Position numbers and translations under genes: made by a program
NCBI RefSeq assembly: GCF_017795885.1
Contig: NZ_CP059297.1
Location: 1,307,001-1,371,000 of the forward strand
Origin: Brevundimonas sp. AJA228-03
GTDB taxonomy: Bacteria; Pseudomonadota; Alphaproteobacteria; Caulobacterales; Caulobacteraceae
Direction: 5' to 3'
Length of the DNA stretch: 64,000 nt
Notes under the pieces: model-generated
What the model was told of the DNA's origin: nothing
The model's input: only the letters and a program-made list of their open reading frames with translations
Database searches by the model: none
In this document: positions 54,895 through 62,039 of the stretch, piece after piece
Layout: each line of letters begins with the position of its first letter
How positions within the stretch are numbered: the first letter of the stretch is position 1

Positions 54895-57261
54895 ATGCGC
54901 AAACTGCTGTTTTCGACGGTCCTTTCGGTCACCCTGGCGGGCGGGTCTTTGCTGACCGGGCCGGTCTGGGCCCAGACACAGTTGCGGCCGGGCGGGCAGA
55001 CCCAGGGCGAGCTGGGACGCGGGGACGACCAGCTGGATTCCGGCGAGTACGTCGACATCTATGAGGTGCAGGGCCGGGCGGGTCAGCCGCTGTCGGTGAC
55101 GATGCGTTCGGACGACTTCGACACCTATCTGATGGTGCGGGGGCCGGGCGATTTCGAGCAGGACAACGACGACGGCGGCGACGACGGCACCAACTCCATG
55201 CTGGACGTGCGGCTGCCGGTCGACGGAACCTACCGGATCACGGCGACCAGCTTCGAGCCCGGCGAAAGCGGACGGTATTCGCTCAGCCTGGGGGCAGGCG
55301 GCAATGGTCCGCGCGGCGGCAATATGGGCGGAGACGCAGGCGGGGGGGGCCTGTCGCCCGATCGCCCGGCCAGCGGCGTTCTGGCGTCCGGCGACCGGAC
55401 CCTGTCGACCGGAGAGTTCGCCGATATCTGGAGCTTCCCGGTGCGGCGCGGCCAGACCTATTCCGTCAGCCTGAACGCCAGCGACTTCGACCCCTATCTG
55501 ATCCTGCGCGGACCGGGCGGCCTGTCCGAGGACAATGACGACGACACCGGCCAGCGCGGTACCCGCAACAGCCGTATCCGCTTCACCGCCCCGGCCGACG
55601 GGACGGCGAGCGTGTCGGCCACCAGTTTCGCGAGCGGCGAGACGGGGCGTTATCAGATCGCGCTGGAGGAGGGCGGTCGCGGTTCGGGTGGGCCGGGGCG
55701 GTCCCAGCAGGGGGCCTATCAGCCGCCCGAGCGGCCCGTGCAGGGCGCGATCACCGTCGGCCAGACCGTCAGCGGATCGCTGGGGCGCGGCGATCGCCAG
55801 CTGGATTCGGGCGAATACATCGACACCTACACCGTGCGGGGACGCCGGGGTCAGCAGCTCGACCTGCGCCTGACGGGCGACGGTTTCGATCCGTACCTGG
55901 CCATTCAGGGCCCGGGCGGGTTGTCGGAATTCAACGACGACGACTCCGAAGGCGGGGGTCTGGACAGCCGCCTGTTCGTGACCCTGCCGGCCGACGGCGA
56001 GTACCGCGTCACGGCCACCAGCTATGAGGCCGGGGAGGCCGGGGACTATCGGCTGAGCGTCGTTCCCGCCACGGGGCGCGGGCAGGCCGGTCGGCCGCAG
56101 CAGGACAGCTATGTCGAGAACGACCGCGGGCGCCGCGAGGTGGCCGGCGGCACGATCCGCATCGGCGACACCGTGGGGGGCACGCTCCAGTCCGGCGACG
56201 ACCAGCTGGAGTCGGGCGAATACGTCGACACCTTCACCTTCCGCGGCCAGCGCGGCCAGCGGGTGGCGGCGGAGCTGACCTCCTCGGCGTTCGACGCCTA
56301 TGTGCTGATGACCACGCCCTCGGGCGAGCAGCTGGAGAACGACGACGGCGAGGACAGCACCGACAGCCGCCTGGACACCGTCCTGACGGAAGACGGCGAA
56401 TACACGGTCGCGGTGACCAGCTATCAGCCCGGCGAGACCGGATCGTATCGCTTCAGCGTACTGCCCAGCCAGGGGTCGCAGCGTCAGGCCGCCGTGCCGG
56501 GCGGTCCGCGCGTGTTCGCCATCATGGTCGGCATTTCCGACTACGGCGATGAGGCCAACAACCTGCCCTATACCGACGAGGACGCCGAGAAGCTGGCCGA
56601 GACGCTGGACCGCGAGGGCGTGCTGAACGCCTCCAGCGTGGTCCTGACCAATGCCGAGGCCACCGTGGCCGGCGTGCGTCGCGCCTTTACCGCCGTGGCG
56701 CGCGAGGCCGGGCCGGACGACATGTTCCTGTTCTTCTTCTCGGGCCATGGCAGCCAGGAAGACTCCGTCACCAGCGCCCAGGAGCCGGACGGCCGCACTG
56801 AAACCATCGTCCTGAGGGACGGAGAGATCACCGATCAGGAAATGGCCCGGCTGTTCAACAGCCTGGACACGCGGCTGTCGCTGCTGGTGCTGGACAGCTG
56901 TTTCTCGGGCGGCTTCGCGCGCAATGTCGTGGACCGGCCGGGCGTCATGGGGCTGTTCAGCTCCGAAGAGGATCTGACCAGCGCGGTGGCGGACAAGTTC
57001 GAGGCGGGGGGCTATCTGTCCCACTTCCTGCGGGCGGGTCTGGCCGGCGACGGCGACGGCGACGGGGACGGGGCGGTGACGGCGGGCGAGCTGGCCACCT
57101 ATCTGCGGGCCCAGTTCGTGGCCGAGGTCCGGGGCGTGGAGTCCGAGACCATGGAGGGCCAGCGCAACTACCAGAACCTGGTCATCGACCGGGGCGGGGT
57201 GCAGATCGACGACATCGTGCTGCGCCTGGCGTCGTACGGCTCATCGGCGGGCGGTCTGTAG
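54895..57261 (+). CDS. Secreted caspase-like protein with four PPC-type domains
   Basis: 788 aa. A signal peptide (about 1-27, ending WAQ) precedes four repeated beta domains (about 35-140, 155-255, 275-385, 400-520), each with GDxQLDSGEYxDxYxxxG-like starts and FDxYLxxxGPxG cores, the PPC pre-peptidase C-terminal type. The C-terminal peptidase C14 fold (about 535-785) starts RVFAIMVGISDYGDEANNLP. It has the catalytic His618 in FFFSGHGSQE and Cys669 in VLDSCFSGG, so the dyad is intact. Probably an exported orthocaspase cutting after basic residues; substrate unknown. Ribosome site is GGGGGGGAATCTC. Confidence 0.9.
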   Translation: MRKLLFSTVLSVTLAGGSLLTGPVWAQTQLRPGGQTQGELGRGDDQLDSGEYVDIYEVQGRAGQPLSVTMRSDDFDTYLMVRGPGDFEQDNDDGGDDGTNSMLDVRLPVDGTYRITATSFEPGESGRYSLSLGAGGNGPRGGNMGGDAGGGGLSPDRPASGVLASGDRTLSTGEFADIWSFPVRRGQTYSVSLNASDFDPYLILRGPGGLSEDNDDDTGQRGTRNSRIRFTAPADGTASVSATSFASGETGRYQIALEEGGRGSGGPGRSQQGAYQPPERPVQGAITVGQTVSGSLGRGDRQLDSGEYIDTYTVRGRRGQQLDLRLTGDGFDPYLAIQGPGGLSEFNDDDSEGGGLDSRLFVTLPADGEYRVTATSYEAGEAGDYRLSVVPATGRGQAGRPQQDSYVENDRGRREVAGGTIRIGDTVGGTLQSGDDQLESGEYVDTFTFRGQRGQRVAAELTSSAFDAYVLMTTPSGEQLENDDGEDSTDSRLDTVLTEDGEYTVAVTSYQPGETGSYRFSVLPSQGSQRQAAVPGGPRVFAIMVGISDYGDEANNLPYTDEDAEKLAETLDREGVLNASSVVLTNAEATVAGVRRAFTAVAREAGPDDMFLFFFSGHGSQEDSVTSAQEPDGRTETIVLRDGEITDQEMARLFNSLDTRLSLLVLDSCFSGGFARNVVDRPGVMGLFSSEEDLTSAVADKFEAGGYLSHFLRAGLAGDGDGDGDGAVTAGELATYLRAQFVAEVRGVESETMEGQRNYQNLVIDRGGVQIDDIVLRLASYGSSAGGL

Positions 57262-57375
57262 GCCGGCCAGCTGCAGCGTCGCGCCCGGGGATCGAACGGT
57301 GCCCGGGCCGGTGGAAAGCGATCCCTGCAATCCCGATTTCCGCGCCCGGTTCACCCGCCTTGCGTTGCCAGGTCA

Positions 57376-57462
57376 TCAGTGCGCCATGGAATGTTCCATA
57401 GTCGCCGACATCATTCCCGTTGAATTCGCGATGGCAGCGATGGCCGGAAGAACGTCGAACAT
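57376..57462 (-). pseudogene. N-terminal relic of the MLDVLLAVVAISGS family
   Basis: A 28-codon ORF reads MFDVLPAIAAIANSTG and then stops after MEHSMAH. The first 16 codons match the leader of the neighbouring family codon by codon (MFDVLLAVVAISGS), with drift in both DNA and protein. The body is missing. It is either a decayed copy or a very short peptide gene. Confidence 0.55.
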
Positions 57463-57516
57463 GCCCGCGTCCCTTGTTTATTCGGACGTTATTGCTCAGA
57501 TGCGCTGTTCTTGAGC

Positions 57517-57876
57517 TCACTGGCTTTGCGGCATGCACTGCGACAAAGCAGGTTCAGCCACGTGTTGTCCAGTGTTGATTATATCAAGTATTTGACCTCG
57601 AAGCGTTTGGTATAAATCCTCCACCTGGCGGTCACTATAGCCGAGTTCTCGACCAATTTCGATCGCCTTACGCTTGAAATCAGATGCTGCCGCCTCACCT
57701 GATCCACGAAATCCTTGATCATCCAGAGTCGTCGCGTCAAAGGCTTCGTGAGCCAGACTGAGCACCGCTGCGCAGTCCGTGGCATGGTCAAGGTTCATTT
57801 CAAGGTCGGGATGTGGGGAAGGACGGTCCCACTGTGAACCCGAAATGGCAATAACGGCCAGAAGAACGTCAAGCAT
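57517..57876 (-). CDS. Small array protein A (leader-conserved, body-variable family)
   Basis: 119 aa of unrecognised function. The N-terminus MLDVLLAVIAISGSQ is shared with three other genes in the next 2.6 kb. A second shared patch (HATDCAAVLSLA) holds an early Cys, and a late Cys lies in SQCMPQSQ. The body (SDFKRKAIEIGRELGYSDRQ) is helical and unlike the others. ATG 57876 follows a good AGGAG site (AGGAGTTAGAT). The hydrophobic start lacks basic residues, so it is not a standard signal peptide. Two cysteines suggest a disulfide outside the cytoplasm. Confidence 0.7.
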   Translation of the reverse strand: MLDVLLAVIAISGSQWDRPSPHPDLEMNLDHATDCAAVLSLAHEAFDATTLDDQGFRGSGEAAASDFKRKAIEIGRELGYSDRQVEDLYQTLRGQILDIINTGQHVAEPALSQCMPQSQ

Positions 57877-58010
57877 ATCTAACTCCTGAGTGTGGACACG
57901 TGTTTCCTGACTTCCATGCGACATCGCGCAGCGGAAGCGGTGCATTGTGTCTCCGGGCTTATCGAACTGAAGACATACGGCCCCCCCGGGCCACGTGCGT
58001 CTGCGCCCGA

Positions 58011-58352
58011 CTATCGTCTCAGGACACAGAGCGCGTGGGGAAAATCGACAGGATTAGGCTGGCCGGTGTAGCGCGGCCCTTTCTGGAGACTGCATTCGTC
58101 ATCGAGCGCATAACGCGGGATCTCGAGCCTTTGTTTTTCAAATGTAGGGTATCCCCGATCGATCCGACAATACATGTTATCGCCGATCTGTTCTGCTTGG
58201 GCAGCGTCACCATACCAGCGACGGCAGACTGCGTTCCAGTCGATGGGAATACTGTCCTGACCCGGGTCCTGAACCCTGGCTATGGATGGCGCAGCCGGTG
58301 CGGCCAGGGCCAGCATGGCGGACAGGGCGAAAAGCACGCGTCGAGATGGCAT
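58011..58352 (-). CDS. Secreted four-cysteine small protein
   Basis: 113 aa. A classical signal peptide (MPSRRVLFALSAMLALAAPA, cleavage near ASA/PSIA) precedes a mature domain with four cysteines (AVCRRWYG, MYCRIDRG, DECSLQKG, ALCVLRR), likely two disulfides. It does not share the MLDVLL leader, but lies inside the array on the same strand, and one copy of the array's repeated DNA module lies upstream. A GAGGGAAC ribosome site precedes ATG. No family recognised. Confidence 0.7.
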   Translation of the reverse strand: MPSRRVLFALSAMLALAAPAAPSIARVQDPGQDSIPIDWNAVCRRWYGDAAQAEQIGDNMYCRIDRGYPTFEKQRLEIPRYALDDECSLQKGPRYTGQPNPVDFPHALCVLRR

Positions 58353-58455
58353 CCTGTTCCCTCATGACGGACGGCCCGACCCCCGGACGAGGCGATTTCA
58401 GCGCCTGTCCCGATCGGCATCTGGCCGCAGTTGATCTAAGGACCAAGGGTATCCA

Positions 58456-58560
58456 GACGGGTTCGCCGGTCAAACCGTCCGAACCTGACGGGTCCGTGGG
58501 GCGTGCGTCCGATCAAGCGGTGGCCGACCGCGCGCCGGCCCGCCGGACCGCCATGCGTTA
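58456..58560. repeat. Array upstream module, copy 1
   Basis: About 100 bases matching the modules at 59.5-59.7 and 60.45-60.6 kb. The core is GGTCAA(N)5CCGAACCTGACGGGT, followed by CGATCAAGCGGTGGCCGACC in copies 1 and 2. Here it lies between the C-terminal relic and the four-cysteine gene. Confidence 0.8.
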
Positions 58561-58737
58561 CCGGGGGCGGTCCACGCGTACGCCCGGCAATCTCAGGCAC
58601 TGCTCCCAATACGGCCTCGGAAAAGGAGAGAACCCGCTGGTCCGCTCTTCTGCGTCCCGGCGGCGAACGATTTCGTCCAGACCATCGATGTATCGCATGC
58701 CGCGTTCTTCAATAAGGTTGAACAGCCCGGCCAAGTC
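58558..58737 (-). pseudogene. C-terminal relic of an array gene
   Basis: A frame open for 59 codons directly after a stop, encoding LAGLFNLIEERGMRYIDGLD, then DEIVRRRDAEERTSGFSPFP, and ending YWEQCLRLPGVRVDRPR. The late C-L-x-L cysteine motif matches the other members (CMRL, CLEL), but there is no leader and no good start. It overlaps the last 29 bases of protein B in another frame. It reads as the body of a fifth family member whose 5' end was replaced by recombination. Confidence 0.5.
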
Positions 58738-59068
58738 TCATGCAGGTTTGCACATTTTCTGAACCAAAGACTTCGGATTGTATGCCTTGGCTTACGAGGC
58801 GTTGGTCGGCTTCACGCAGGGCATCTCTTCGTGCGTGAATTGCGTCAAAAACTCCCCCGGTGACTGGGACGCCATGGGGTAGACTAATCGCTGACGTTGC
58901 CAGGATGTTGTAGAAGCTATATAAAGTGTCTTGCCGATACGCATTGCCAGGCCGATTCATGGCCTCACTGAGAACGGCTGCGCAATTGACAGCGTTTTCG
59001 TAGGTCGGCTCAAGGTCATTGCTCGGTGAACCCGAGATGGCCACGACAGCCAGAAGCACGTCCAACAT
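58709..59068 (-). CDS. Small array protein B
   Basis: 119 aa. N-terminus MLDVLLAVVAISGSPSNDLE and NAVNCAAVL are nearly identical to protein C, and the first 95 bases of the two genes match almost base for base. The body (YRQDTLYSFYNILATSAISL) is unrelated to C. The late Cys is in VQTCMRLGR. The start follows GAGGGTTTGAT, 15 bases after the stop of protein C, so B and C form an operon. Function unknown. Confidence 0.72.
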   Translation of the reverse strand: MLDVLLAVVAISGSPSNDLEPTYENAVNCAAVLSEAMNRPGNAYRQDTLYSFYNILATSAISLPHGVPVTGGVFDAIHARRDALREADQRLVSQGIQSEVFGSENVQTCMRLGRAVQPY

Positions 59069-59083
59069 ATCAAACCCTCTAGT

Positions 59084-59500
59084 TTATCGAAGTCCCAATT
59101 CGTGTGTAAATTCATAAAGATGATCGGAAAGTTCCAGGCACCTTGTCACAATTTCTGGATTAGAAGGCACAATTTCTGGATTAGAGAGAGCAGAGTCAAC
59201 GGCTGGCTTCATCGCGCGTTCAACGGGTTCACGCATGGCAAGTTGTCGTGCTGCAACTGCCTCATCAACAGCGGCAGAGCTAGCGGCAGATCTCCAGTCT
59301 ATTTCGGGTGCGAGCAAGCGCGCTGCGTACTTCAATCGATTTATGTGAACAGTAAACAAATCAACGTAACCATCAAGGGCATCATACCTACTCCTCAAAT
59401 AGAGAACGGCTGCGCAATTGACAGCGTTTTCGTAGGTCGGTTCAAGCTCATCGCTCGGTGAACCCGAGATGGCCACGACAGCCAGAAGCACGTCCAACAT
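59084..59500 (-). CDS. Small array protein C
   Basis: 138 aa. Conserved leader MLDVLLAVVAISGSPSDELE and patch NAVNCAAVL, then a body found only here (YDALDGYVDLFTVHINRLKY, RQLAMREPVERAMKPAVDSA). The late Cys lies in VTRCLELSD. A 21-base tandem duplication near the end encodes SNPEIVP twice. The gene is AT-richer than the window, a sign of transfer. Start follows a CAGGATGTAGAT site and a conserved upstream module. Function unknown. Confidence 0.72.
   Translation of the reverse strand: MLDVLLAVVAISGSPSDELEPTYENAVNCAAVLYLRSRYDALDGYVDLFTVHINRLKYAARLLAPEIDWRSAASSAAVDEAVAARQLAMREPVERAMKPAVDSALSNPEIVPSNPEIVTRCLELSDHLYEFTHELGLR
59147..59188. repeat. 21-base tandem duplication inside protein C
   Basis: Two copies of a 21-base unit beginning CACAATTTCTGGATTAGA differ only at the final bases. 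They encode SNPEIVP and SNPEIVT in frame, a recent slippage event. Confidence 0.9.
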
Positions 59501-59670
59501 ATCTACATCCTGATTTCGATCATCCGGTTTTTCGAACAGCGCACGACATCGCGCACCGAGCAGTCAATAATGTCATCGAGACGGGTTTGCCGGTCAAGCA
59601 GTCCGAACCTGACGGGTCGGTGCGACGTGCGCCAGATCAAGCGGTGGCCGACCGCGCGCCTGCCCGCATG
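59501..59670. repeat. Array upstream module, copy 2
   Basis: The longest copy: the segment next to the start codon (CTGATTTCGATCATCCGGTT, GCACGACATCGCGCACCG) matches copy 3, and the distal segment (CCGAACCTGACGGGT, CGATCAAGCGGTGGCCGACC-like) matches copy 1. It likely holds the promoter and leader of protein C. The IS remnant begins right after it. Confidence 0.8.
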
Positions 59671-59671
59671 T

Positions 59672-60052
59672 GGACCTTGGTCGTCCGACCGCCGCGCGAC
59701 CGGCCTATGGCGTGAGCTGAGGCCCCCCTTTTGCGCCCGCCGCCGAGCGGTGCGCCTTGACCGAGGTCGAGTCGATCATGGCCGTCACCGGCGGGTCGGC
59801 CGCCTCGCCGAGCGACGCCAGGATCCGCTGCCACAGACCTCGCTTGCTCCAGCGATTGTAACGGTTGAACACCGTCGTATAGGGCCCATAGACGTCCGGA
59901 AGAGCGCGCCAGCGACACCCCTCGCGCAGCCGATGAACGATACCCGAGATCACCCGGCGATCATCCACCCGCCGCTTGCCCGTATAGACCTTGGGGATGT
60001 GCGGCTCGATCACAGCCCACTGCGCGTCCGACAACCAGAAATGATCCGCCAT
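59672..60052 (-). mobile_element. IS5-family transposase remnant, 3'-truncated
   Basis: The first frame (MADHFWLSDAQWAVIEPHIP, HRLREGCRWRALPDVYGPYT) carries the first catalytic Asp in MIDSTSVKAHRSAAGAKGG. It then stops, while the next frame continues AIGRSRGGRTTKVH. The switch lies at a run of four A and six G (minus strand), the slippery site used by two-frame IS5-group elements. The sequence ends at KVH and joins array repeat DNA, so the second and third catalytic residues are lost. The element is inactive. Confidence 0.85.
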
Positions 60053-60127
60053 GATCCAAGCCTCCTCAGAAGCTTGACTCACAATAGTCAGATCAACTCA
60101 ATTGCGTATATTACACAAAAATCCTTC

Positions 60128-60454
60128 TCATGTAAAGTAAAGGGCAAGGTACACGCAACTTGGAATTTCTACAACGCGGTGATCTCCGTTTGCATTTATC
60201 TCTCGTCTTCGCGCTTCCACGTCATTAACAACGTCGGATTCGCTCTTGTTAAGTCCGCTTTGAGCGGCGAACACGCGCGCTCCCCTCAACAACCTACGTC
60301 TGGCCTCCGGAACATCATTCATCTGCTGTGCATCTTGCAAAATGGCTAAGCAAGTGACAGCGTTTCCATAGTTCGGATCAAGCCATGGGCTCTGTGAACC
60401 CCAGTTGTACTGTGAACCCGAGATGGCCACGACAGCCAGAAGCACGTCGAACAT
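60128..60454 (-). CDS. Small array protein D
   Basis: 108 aa. Leader MFDVLLAVVAISGSQYNWGS, patch NAVTCLAIL with the early Cys, and late Cys in IPSCVYLALYFT. The body (ARRRLLRGARVFAAQSGLNK) is unrelated to the other members. ATG follows the strong site AGGGGGTAGAT. The stop lies about 75 bases before the IS remnant, so the C-terminus may have been altered by the insertion. Function unknown. Confidence 0.68.
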   Translation of the reverse strand: MFDVLLAVVAISGSQYNWGSQSPWLDPNYGNAVTCLAILQDAQQMNDVPEARRRLLRGARVFAAQSGLNKSESDVVNDVEARRREINANGDHRVVEIPSCVYLALYFT

Positions 60455-60591
60455 ATCTACCCCCTGATTTCGATCATCCGGTTTTCTGAACGGCGCACGA
60501 CATCGCGCACCGGGCAGTGAACAGTGTTATCGAGGCGGTTTCGCTGGTCAAGCATTCCGAACCTGACGGGTCGGTGTGACGCGCGCTTCAT
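60455..60591. repeat. Array upstream module, copy 3
   Basis: About 135 bases upstream of protein D matching copy 2 from the ribosome site outward: CTGATTTCGATCATCCGGTT, GCACGACATCGCGCACCG, and CCGAACCTGACGGGTCGGTG. It ends about 20 bases before the tRNA-Val gene. Confidence 0.8.
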
Positions 60592-60610
60592 CCGTCCAGG
60601 AGGGAATGAA

Positions 60611-60685
60611 TGGTGGATGCGACAGGGATTGAACCTGTGACCCCCTCGGTGTGAACGAGGTGCTCTCCCGCTGAGCTACGCATCC
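60611..60685 (-). tRNA. tRNA-Val (anticodon CAC)
   Basis: A complete cloverleaf: acceptor GGATGCG with CGCATCC, D arm GCTCAGCGGGAGAGC, anticodon stem CCTCG/CGAGG with loop TTCACAC, T arm ACAGG/CCTGT with loop TTCAATC, and an encoded CCA end. Anticodon CAC reads GUG valine codons. It marks the border of the accessory array. Confidence 0.97.
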
Positions 60686-60749
60686 ATCTCGGGCCCGGAT
60701 CACCGGGGAGGCGGGGACATAGCCCGCTCCCCGACAGGTGGCAAGGGGA

Positions 60750-62039
60750 TCAGATCCCCGCTGCGACCACCGTGTCGGGCGTCGCGGCGTCCGGGTCGCC
60801 GGGCAGCCAGGCGACGTGGCCGTCATAGATGCCCTGGTTCAGGATGCTCTCTTCCTTCGCCACCAGAACGGGGACCAGCATCTGGCCGGTGACGTTGGTG
60901 GCCGTGCGCATCATATCGATGATCCGGTCGATGGCGACGATATAGCCGATGCCCTCCAGCGGCAGGCCGGCCGTGGACAGGGTCAGGGTCAACATGACGA
61001 TGGAGGTGCCCGGCACCCCCGCCGTCCCCAGCGAGCCCAGGATCGCGGTCAGGCCGATCAGGACATACTGGGTGATCGTCAGGTCGATGCTGAAGTACTG
61101 GGCGATGAAGATGGAGGCGATGGCCGGATAGATGGCTCCGCAGCCGTCCATCTTCACATTGGCGCCCAGGGGCGCGGCGAAGGCGGCATAGGCCTGGGGC
61201 ACGCCGAGCCGCTCGACCGTCTGGCGCAGGGTGATCGGCAGGGTGCCGAGCGAGGAGGAGGTGGCGAAGGCCGTCTGTTGCGCGGCGAAGGCCCCCCGGA
61301 AGAAGCTGGCGGCCTTCAGCCCGTGCAGCTTCAGCAGGCCGGAATAGACGATCAGGATGTGGAACAGGCAGGCCGCATAGATGGCCAGGATGAACTTGCC
61401 CAGCGGCAGCAGCGCCTCCCAGCCATAGCCGCCGACGACCGAGCCGATCAGGCCGAAGACGCCGAACGGGGTCAGCTGGATCACCCAGCGGGTGATGCGG
61501 AAGACGATGGCGGCGCCCTCGTCGACCAGCCGCCGCGCCGTCTGGGCCCGGTCGCCGAGCGCCACCAGGGCCGCCCCGACCAGGGCCGAGAAGAAGATGA
61601 TCTGCAGCACCTTGCCCTCGGCCAGGGCGGCGAAGGGATTGGTCGGGACGATGCCGATCAGCACCTCCAGCGGGGTGGGGATGTCGCGCTCGCGCACCTC
61701 GCCCAGCGGCAGGTTCGACAGGCCGAGGCCGGGATTGATCAGGTGGCCGAAGGCGAAGCCGACCAGCACGGCCAGCAGGGAGGTGATGGCGAACCACAGG
61801 ATGGTCCGCGCCCCCAGCCGGATCGCGCCCGCCCCCGCACCCAGTTTCGCGATCGAGGAGGCGATGGTGAACAGCACCAGGGGCGCGACCACCATCCGGA
61901 TCAGGTTCAGATAGACGTCGCCGATCGGCTGGAGCCAGACCTCCGCCCGCTCGCGCAGGATCAGCCCGGCGACGATGCCGAGCGCGAATCCGAAAGCGGT
62001 GCGCTGCCACAGGGGAATGGCGAAGAAGCGTGCGAGCAT
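60750..62039 (-). CDS. DAACS-family dicarboxylate/amino acid:cation symporter
   Basis: 429-aa inner-membrane transporter of the GltP/DctA family, moving dicarboxylates or glutamate/aspartate with sodium or protons. About eight helices, the serine-rich loop TAFATSSSLGTLPITLR, GANVKMDGCGAIYPAIASIF (family NMDGT site), and GTAGVPGTSIVMLTLTL. The substrate-binding helix 8 shows DRIIDMMRTATNVTGQMLVP with the conserved Arg-Thr-Asn pattern. ATG 62039 gives MLARFFAIPLW; an in-frame upstream ATG adds a non-homologous segment. Confidence 0.93.
   Translation of the reverse strand: MLARFFAIPLWQRTAFGFALGIVAGLILRERAEVWLQPIGDVYLNLIRMVVAPLVLFTIASSIAKLGAGAGAIRLGARTILWFAITSLLAVLVGFAFGHLINPGLGLSNLPLGEVRERDIPTPLEVLIGIVPTNPFAALAEGKVLQIIFFSALVGAALVALGDRAQTARRLVDEGAAIVFRITRWVIQLTPFGVFGLIGSVVGGYGWEALLPLGKFILAIYAACLFHILIVYSGLLKLHGLKAASFFRGAFAAQQTAFATSSSLGTLPITLRQTVERLGVPQAYAAFAAPLGANVKMDGCGAIYPAIASIFIAQYFSIDLTITQYVLIGLTAILGSLGTAGVPGTSIVMLTLTLSTAGLPLEGIGYIVAIDRIIDMMRTATNVTGQMLVPVLVAKEESILNQGIYDGHVAWLPGDPDAATPDTVVAAGI

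Follow-up and report, generated by a model that had tools for sequence, protein, structure and literature searches.

Apparent body replacement behind a shared promoter and leader in a tandem array of two-cysteine genes beside tRNA-Val in Brevundimonas

Strings of small, non-identical tandem paralogues are known from Firmicutes, where the esaG and tipC immunity genes of the type VII secretion system and the lpl tandem lipoprotein genes are arranged in this way (PMC9484751). Near-identical DNA blocks of ~55-130 bases are described there, at which recombination alters copy number and yields mosaic genes; TipC has conserved blocks near its start and end, varies in between and is predicted to carry a lipoprotein signal (PMC9484751). 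Here we describe a locus of Brevundimonas sp. AJA228-03 (contig NZ_CP059297.1; the 64,000-nucleotide stretch from position 1,307,001 to 1,371,000 is termed the window, and coordinates are window positions) that resembles the esaG, tipC and lpl strings in its tandem paralogues with short near-identical blocks and in a breakpoint between strains at such a block. It differs from esaG and tipC in that those are Firmicutes genes for other proteins and have more than one block, whereas the Brevundimonas array has a 5' block only. We propose that the locus, in a Brevundimonas near B. subvibrioides strains, is a paralogue array in which recombination or unequal crossover at the shared 5' blocks probably deletes units and swaps gene bodies behind a promoter and leader. 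The array family is undescribed in the libraries searched, while its mode of evolution is already known; literature searches returned no description of the array and this one precedent.

A first-pass annotation of this DNA had reported four minus-strand genes with a common leader, a cysteine patch, a second cysteine near the C-terminus and, for two of them, nearly identical 5' DNA, and all of these features were recovered. In order of transcription, the four intact open reading frames (ORFs) are D (60128..60454, 108 amino acids, Cys35 and Cys100), C (59084..59500, 138 amino acids, Cys29 and Cys121), B (58709..59068, 119 amino acids, Cys29 and Cys109, starting 15 bases past C) and A (57517..57876, 119 amino acids, Cys35 and Cys114). 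The hydrophobic 14-residue leader M(L/F)DVLLAV(V/I)AISGS opens 4/4 of the proteins, and each contains exactly two cysteines. With minor changes, the same leader and the same cysteine count are found in four of four genes (1', 2', E' and A') of G121, the only other array carrier found. A purine-rich stretch lies shortly 5' of the ATG (AGGAGT in A, AGGGGG in D) and fits the short start. At least three adjacent non-identical paralogues are present in each genome, four intact and one broken (E) in the window and four intact in G121, with a 113-residue gene of another kind in between.

The near-identity of the array genes is confined to their 5' portions. B and C agree at 96/99 bases from the ATG and then at 162/253 aligned bases, while C and D agree at 43/45 bases from the ATG and at 127/158 upstream; beyond the shared blocks, identity in both pairs is near background. 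The matching tracts end differently, extending from about -3 to +99 in B/C and from the upstream region to about +42 in C/D. Leader DNA is 98-100% identical among B, C and D and 93-95% identical to that of 1', against 0.48-0.54 for the remainder among B, C and D. An upstream module, also on the minus strand, precedes D (60455..60610, repeats D2 and D4; also found before G121 gene 1') and, as a second copy, C (59501..59667, repeats D2 and D4); B is without such a module of its own. Repeat families D1-D5 were found in the locus, the upstream repeat occurring in three copies, and the upstream-plus-leader DNA of D matches four more places in the locus (E 1e-62 to 8e-9).

Comparison with G121, whose flanking genes are 95.6-96.7% identical to those of the window, places a sharp break at the end of the leader. 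A BLASTN alignment that reaches from the symporter gene across tRNA-Val and the promoter to the leader has 404 columns at 91% identity and ends where the leader ends. Over the 330 bases upstream of D and 1', tRNA included, 299 of 317 aligned bases are identical; binned from -200 to +42, identity is 1.00, 0.88, 0.92, 1.00, 0.95 and 0.95, then 0.60, 0.56 and 0.57. Between the bodies of D and 1', DNA identity is 0.620, against a shuffled mean of 0.615 (200 shuffles); the Fisher p given with this comparison is 6e-23. Gradual mutation cannot produce such a drop when synonymous divergence (dS) between the strains is 0.178 for A/A' and 0.164 for the caspase-like gene that borders the array, and a replacement is needed. 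The alignments thus demonstrate, at the level of sequence, that the body at the first position behind tRNA-Val differs by replacement between the two strains, on the evidence of a single strain pair with a single clear breakpoint. This part of the picture drawn by the first-pass annotation, a constant leader with swapped bodies, stands in that the shared 5' module has recombined relative to the bodies; its other part, that the bodies are unrelated, does not, as set out below.

Judged by where the breakpoint lies, the replacement most likely arose at the leader block, through homologous recombination or an unequal crossover. Units share a near-identical upstream module, the first 42-99 coding bases, or both, and a crossover between such blocks would drop units and bring a resident promoter and leader in front of other bodies. 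A longer ancestral array from which different members were lost in each strain by leader crossover would give the D/1' difference. Broken units are present elsewhere in the array: the tail of a 2' orthologue follows B (58558..58664, minus strand, identified by BLASTN against G121 and as an ORF tail), and E (57324..57462, minus strand, repeat D5 and BLASTN pieces), a pseudogene with the leader and a piece of the body, is shortened where G121 E' is intact; the array profile also matches E (57317-57436). A and the 113-residue gene each have a straightforward orthologue in G121 (81% identity for the latter). The tRNA-proximal half has therefore turned over and the distal half has not. No recombinase was seen among the cluster ORFs read, save a truncated IS5 transposase, nor any switching machinery, so that homologous recombination with deletion between direct repeats is the simplest cause. 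In a free-living genus, the locus compactly illustrates a body replaced between near sisters behind a promoter and leader that stayed in place.

The bodies themselves are diverged rather than unrelated. Protein identity after the 14-residue leader is 18-33% among the four window genes, Cys patch included; B/C alignments that take in the leader cover 95-105 or more residues of B at 38-45% identity. Leave-one-out body profiles were built from the part after the Cys patch of the eight array proteins and compared with 1000 shuffles each; shuffles scoring as well numbered 0 for B, 0 for C, 0 for 1', 1 for E', 3 for D and 3 for 2', against 38 for A and 161 for A'. The earlier description of the bodies as unrelated is therefore contradicted for B, C and D, and these profiles identify six of the eight bodies (B, C, D, 1', 2' and E') as diverged relatives, with A and A' so only marginally.

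For B, AlphaFold2 with an alignment of the eight array sequences predicts helices at residues 23-37, 46-62, 70-93 and 103-116, which we read as a four-helix bundle (mean predicted local distance difference test score, pLDDT, 80.6; predicted template modelling score 0.75; residues 1-15, the leader, under 50). In this model one cysteine lies in the first core helix and one in the last, and the two may form a disulfide. The leader presumably exports the protein, giving an extracytoplasmic, perhaps periplasmic, location.

A single-copy family of Brevundimonas shows comparable features. Its members (SYDEAVRCAG...) have a hydrophobic start and a Y-x-x-x-V-x-C-A type patch, stand beside a LysR-like ORF at the four loci read by eye, and bear no Pfam or NCBIfam name. 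The family profile matches 77/131 genus genomes (E<=0.01), one match being array gene B itself (E 0.005); without B and the weak or fragmentary matches in G049, G076 and G093, 73 genus genomes carry the family. Unlike the array, it gives one match per genome, is well conserved and forms no array. Exactly two cysteines are present in 20/20 single-copy rows (alignment A4) and in 8/8 array proteins, and the AlphaFold2 model of the L023 member has four core helices in the same order as B (mean pLDDT 86.1), so that the helix positions of the cysteines come from two models, B and L023. Profile comparison with hhalign gave 90.6% (E 1.3e-6, 95 columns), and variants gave 78.5% over 39 columns with a four-row profile and 79.8% over 42 columns with another gap setting. 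With the leader removed, the value was 53.6% over 24 columns; the score of 28.6 compares with at most 19.7 among 200 column shuffles and with 10.2 when the profile was reversed. Body-only profiles of the two groups were not significant against each other, with 15-639/1000 shuffles as good and, in the reverse direction, 85, 294 and 952 for three members. On the Cys patch, the two cysteines and the helix order, array and single-copy family are likely, if unproven, distant homologues. The closest relative of the family's LysR-like neighbour in the window genome or G121 is only 34% identical. At L007, L012, L023 and L033 the family gene was seen by eye beside the LysR-like regulator and a conserved ORF of ~415 residues.

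The array is rare. Its profile matches 7/131 genus genomes at E<=0.01, strongly in the window genome (2.6e-41) and G121 (1.3e-43) and weakly in five others (0.001-0.0085), four of which (G063, G083, G052 and G044) match at the locus of the single-copy family. The fifth weak match, at G089:C48:2663-2836 (L045, E 0.0085), lies away from single-copy family sites. At family level, 2/299 genomes match at E<=0.001, the window genome and G121; at class level 3/385 match, the window genome with G409 and G660, G121 evidently lying outside this draw. The G409 and G660 matches are partial (profile 38-105), fall in frames of 959 and 627 residues, and are regarded as chance resemblances of helical sequence. 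A search of the window genome with B gave four matches, all inside the array locus, and the 113-residue gene is found in 2/131 genus genomes (E<=0.001), again the window genome and G121. Searched against the protein collection, B retrieves P0001 (window C) and nothing else; the profile retrieves P0001 and P0025, both the window's own, and P0023 and P0024, apparently of G121.

The site of the array is the interval 57262-60611, between the caspase-like gene and tRNA-Val. The last 253 residues of the caspase-like gene are matched in 43/131 genus genomes (E<=1e-20). Among 30 loci scanned for tRNAs, with flanks of <=1.5 kb in which most loci cannot show tRNA-Val, it lies within ~30 bases of the end of the caspase match in L167, L168, L170 and L171 and at ~560 in L177; seven of 16 longer stretches have tRNA-Val downstream of the caspase-like gene, at 1.7-4.3 kb, and 0/16 hold a convincing array gene (best E 0.008). 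Other genes occupy the interval in 5/5 relatives with ORFs listed, two of which (L194 and L195) have the same kind of content; the G119 interval holds other genes. By gene content, the interval from the caspase-like gene to tRNA-Val is a variable spot in Brevundimonas.

Between the window and G121, the ratio of nonsynonymous to synonymous divergence (dN/dS) is 0.75 for A/A', 0.69 for the 113-residue gene and 0.12 for the caspase-like gene. Conservation of the same bodies at low dN/dS across strains, which the first-pass annotation had named as refuting its reading, was not seen; of the four leader genes only A has a G121 orthologue, with dN/dS ~0.75 against 0.12 for the caspase-like gene. Its "constant" leader needs tempering, in that the first 30 codons of A/A' (dN 0.197, dS 0.451) diverge more in dN than the rest (dN 0.112, dS 0.105). 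Paralogue ratios are 0.93 for B/C, 0.43 for 2'/E' and 1.42 for B/1', which in mosaic genes are hard to read. GC content is 0.49-0.53 in A-D against 0.674 in the window, and at third codon positions it is 0.43-0.52 against 0.89 in the caspase-like gene. Composition and dN/dS together indicate foreign genes that are fast-evolving or relaxed and do not separate those two.

Several observations weigh against the proposed turnover by recombination at shared 5' blocks. For tsaI of S. aureus, the best-studied parallel with one 5' block only, evidence of recombination was scant (PMC9484751). The leader, very short, with Asp at position 3 and no Lys or Arg in its 14 residues, is a poor textbook signal peptide. 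The ratios of 0.75 in A and 0.69 in the 113-residue gene are also expected under relaxed selection, past codon 30 dN and dS of A/A' are equal, the kinship of the A body is marginal, and the two carrier genomes are too few to give the direction or number of events.

These points bear most on the reading of the locus as a decaying island beside a tRNA, in which foreign low-GC genes, a past duplication, drift and repeat deletions would have left chance chimeras without selected function. Such an origin is unlikely overall but deserves serious weight: it accommodates the broken E, the 2' remnant and the truncated IS5, the low GC of A-D with dN/dS of ~0.7, and the strong matches in 2/131 genus genomes with other cargo at the spot elsewhere. 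It accounts less readily for eight ORFs that are intact across two genomes and each encode exactly two cysteines, or for the four helices predicted for B with good confidence. The lack of a stop in A/A' despite ~46/354 base changes adds little, since 3.7% of point changes in A would give a stop and under two would be expected. If turnover at the shared blocks is accepted, the products could be periplasmic binding proteins kept variable by conflict, in an immunity-like manner, rather than by drift. The fuller form of this idea is something of a long shot: a core Brevundimonas domain would have given rise to a rapidly changing set of four-helix envelope proteins, each pinned by a disulfide, with recombination at the leader block bringing new binding bodies behind a constant promoter and leader in an immunity- or decoy-like arms race in Alphaproteobacteria. 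As evolution here is like that of toxin-immunity strings, finding the binding targets would lead to an unknown conflict or show drift at a tRNA hotspot.

A programmed system resembling antigenic variation, with the tRNA-proximal unit as expression site and the downstream units as donors, would explain why the body of the first unit varies between the strains with promoter and leader retained, and why B, 15 bases past C, has no upstream module of its own. It nevertheless seems very improbable: the cluster shows no recombinase except the broken IS5, C has its own copy of the module, and recent copying should leave a donor, whereas the array profile found no further copies in the window genome or G121 beyond the described units and E (the D and 1' bodies were not searched as DNA). 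Least probable is the cassette capture envisaged by the first-pass annotation, in which unrelated bodies were joined to a common leader. The D/1' body DNA, no closer than shuffled, and the marginal kinship of the A body are in its favor; the 0-3/1000 shuffles as good for B, C, D, 1', 2' and E', the C-terminal Cys common to the bodies and the 38% identity of B and C over 95% of B, leader included, argue against it.

Library searches placed the array genes in no named family. Pfam, NCBIfam, PHROGs and PADLOC gave nothing above chance (best in PHROGs E 0.014, an entry without function), protein B had no match in plasmids and phages, and Foldseek found no match at E<=0.001 in the PDB (B and single-copy family) or among viral structures (B). 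In genome and viral contigs the array profile confirmed no relative, in scans that used a leader-derived pattern only and from which records near the window were perhaps excluded. By eye, the window ORFs include no toxin or secretion gene beside the array. Fold resemblances to the type VI secretion immunity protein Tai4, which has six helices and shares an operon with its effector, and to the type II secretion pilotin PulS had low Z, the Tai4 row being tied with unrelated folds, and were not taken as membership; PulS/OutS gave no Pfam match by name at E<=1 (20 + 8 members) and no such PDB sequence at E<=10. The type VI sheath protein VipB was found in 0/2 carrier genomes (E. coli control positive; effectors were not sought).

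On the minus strand the locus reads tRNA-Val, D, IS5 fragment, C, B, gene remnant, 113-residue gene, A and broken E, followed by the 3' end of the caspase-like gene on the opposite strand. The tRNA, IS5 fragment, gene remnant, 113-residue gene, broken E and three-copy upstream repeat were no part of the first-pass annotation. The upstream border is tRNA-Val (CAC anticodon; 60611..60685, minus strand; ARAGORN, Rfam tRNA E 1e-13); its 3' end (19 bases, <=3 mismatches) occurs once only in the window, giving no sign of a tRNA-derived attachment repeat. The truncated IS5-family transposase remnant (DUF4096; 59671..60108, minus strand; Pfam PF13340 E 9e-27 for ORF 59705-60082) is 87% identical to a record annotated as an IS5 family transposase on an Aminobacter plasmid; against plasmids the locus matched 140 records, and all eight matches listed are to the IS5 stretch. 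For the upstream module of D, folding is little better than in shuffled sequence (z -1.5; 12/200 shuffles as good). A promoter scan of 57100-60800 gave 6 sites against 1.1 expected in this AT-rich region, none within the D upstream module and one (59110-59081) directly before B. The 113-residue companion gene (58011..58352, minus strand) has a signal-peptide-like start and four cysteines, and shares its upstream module with C and D, the copy before it (58451..58543, minus strand, repeat D4) being the third and 89% identical to that of C. The caspase-like gene (54895-57261) carries repeated domains, PPC-like by eye, and its residues 539-709 are recognized by the PADLOC caspase model (E 9e-18). 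A Plastid-ycf2 match in Rfam at 60613-60685 (plus strand), under the gathering score and antisense to tRNA-Val, is probably a tRNA artefact.

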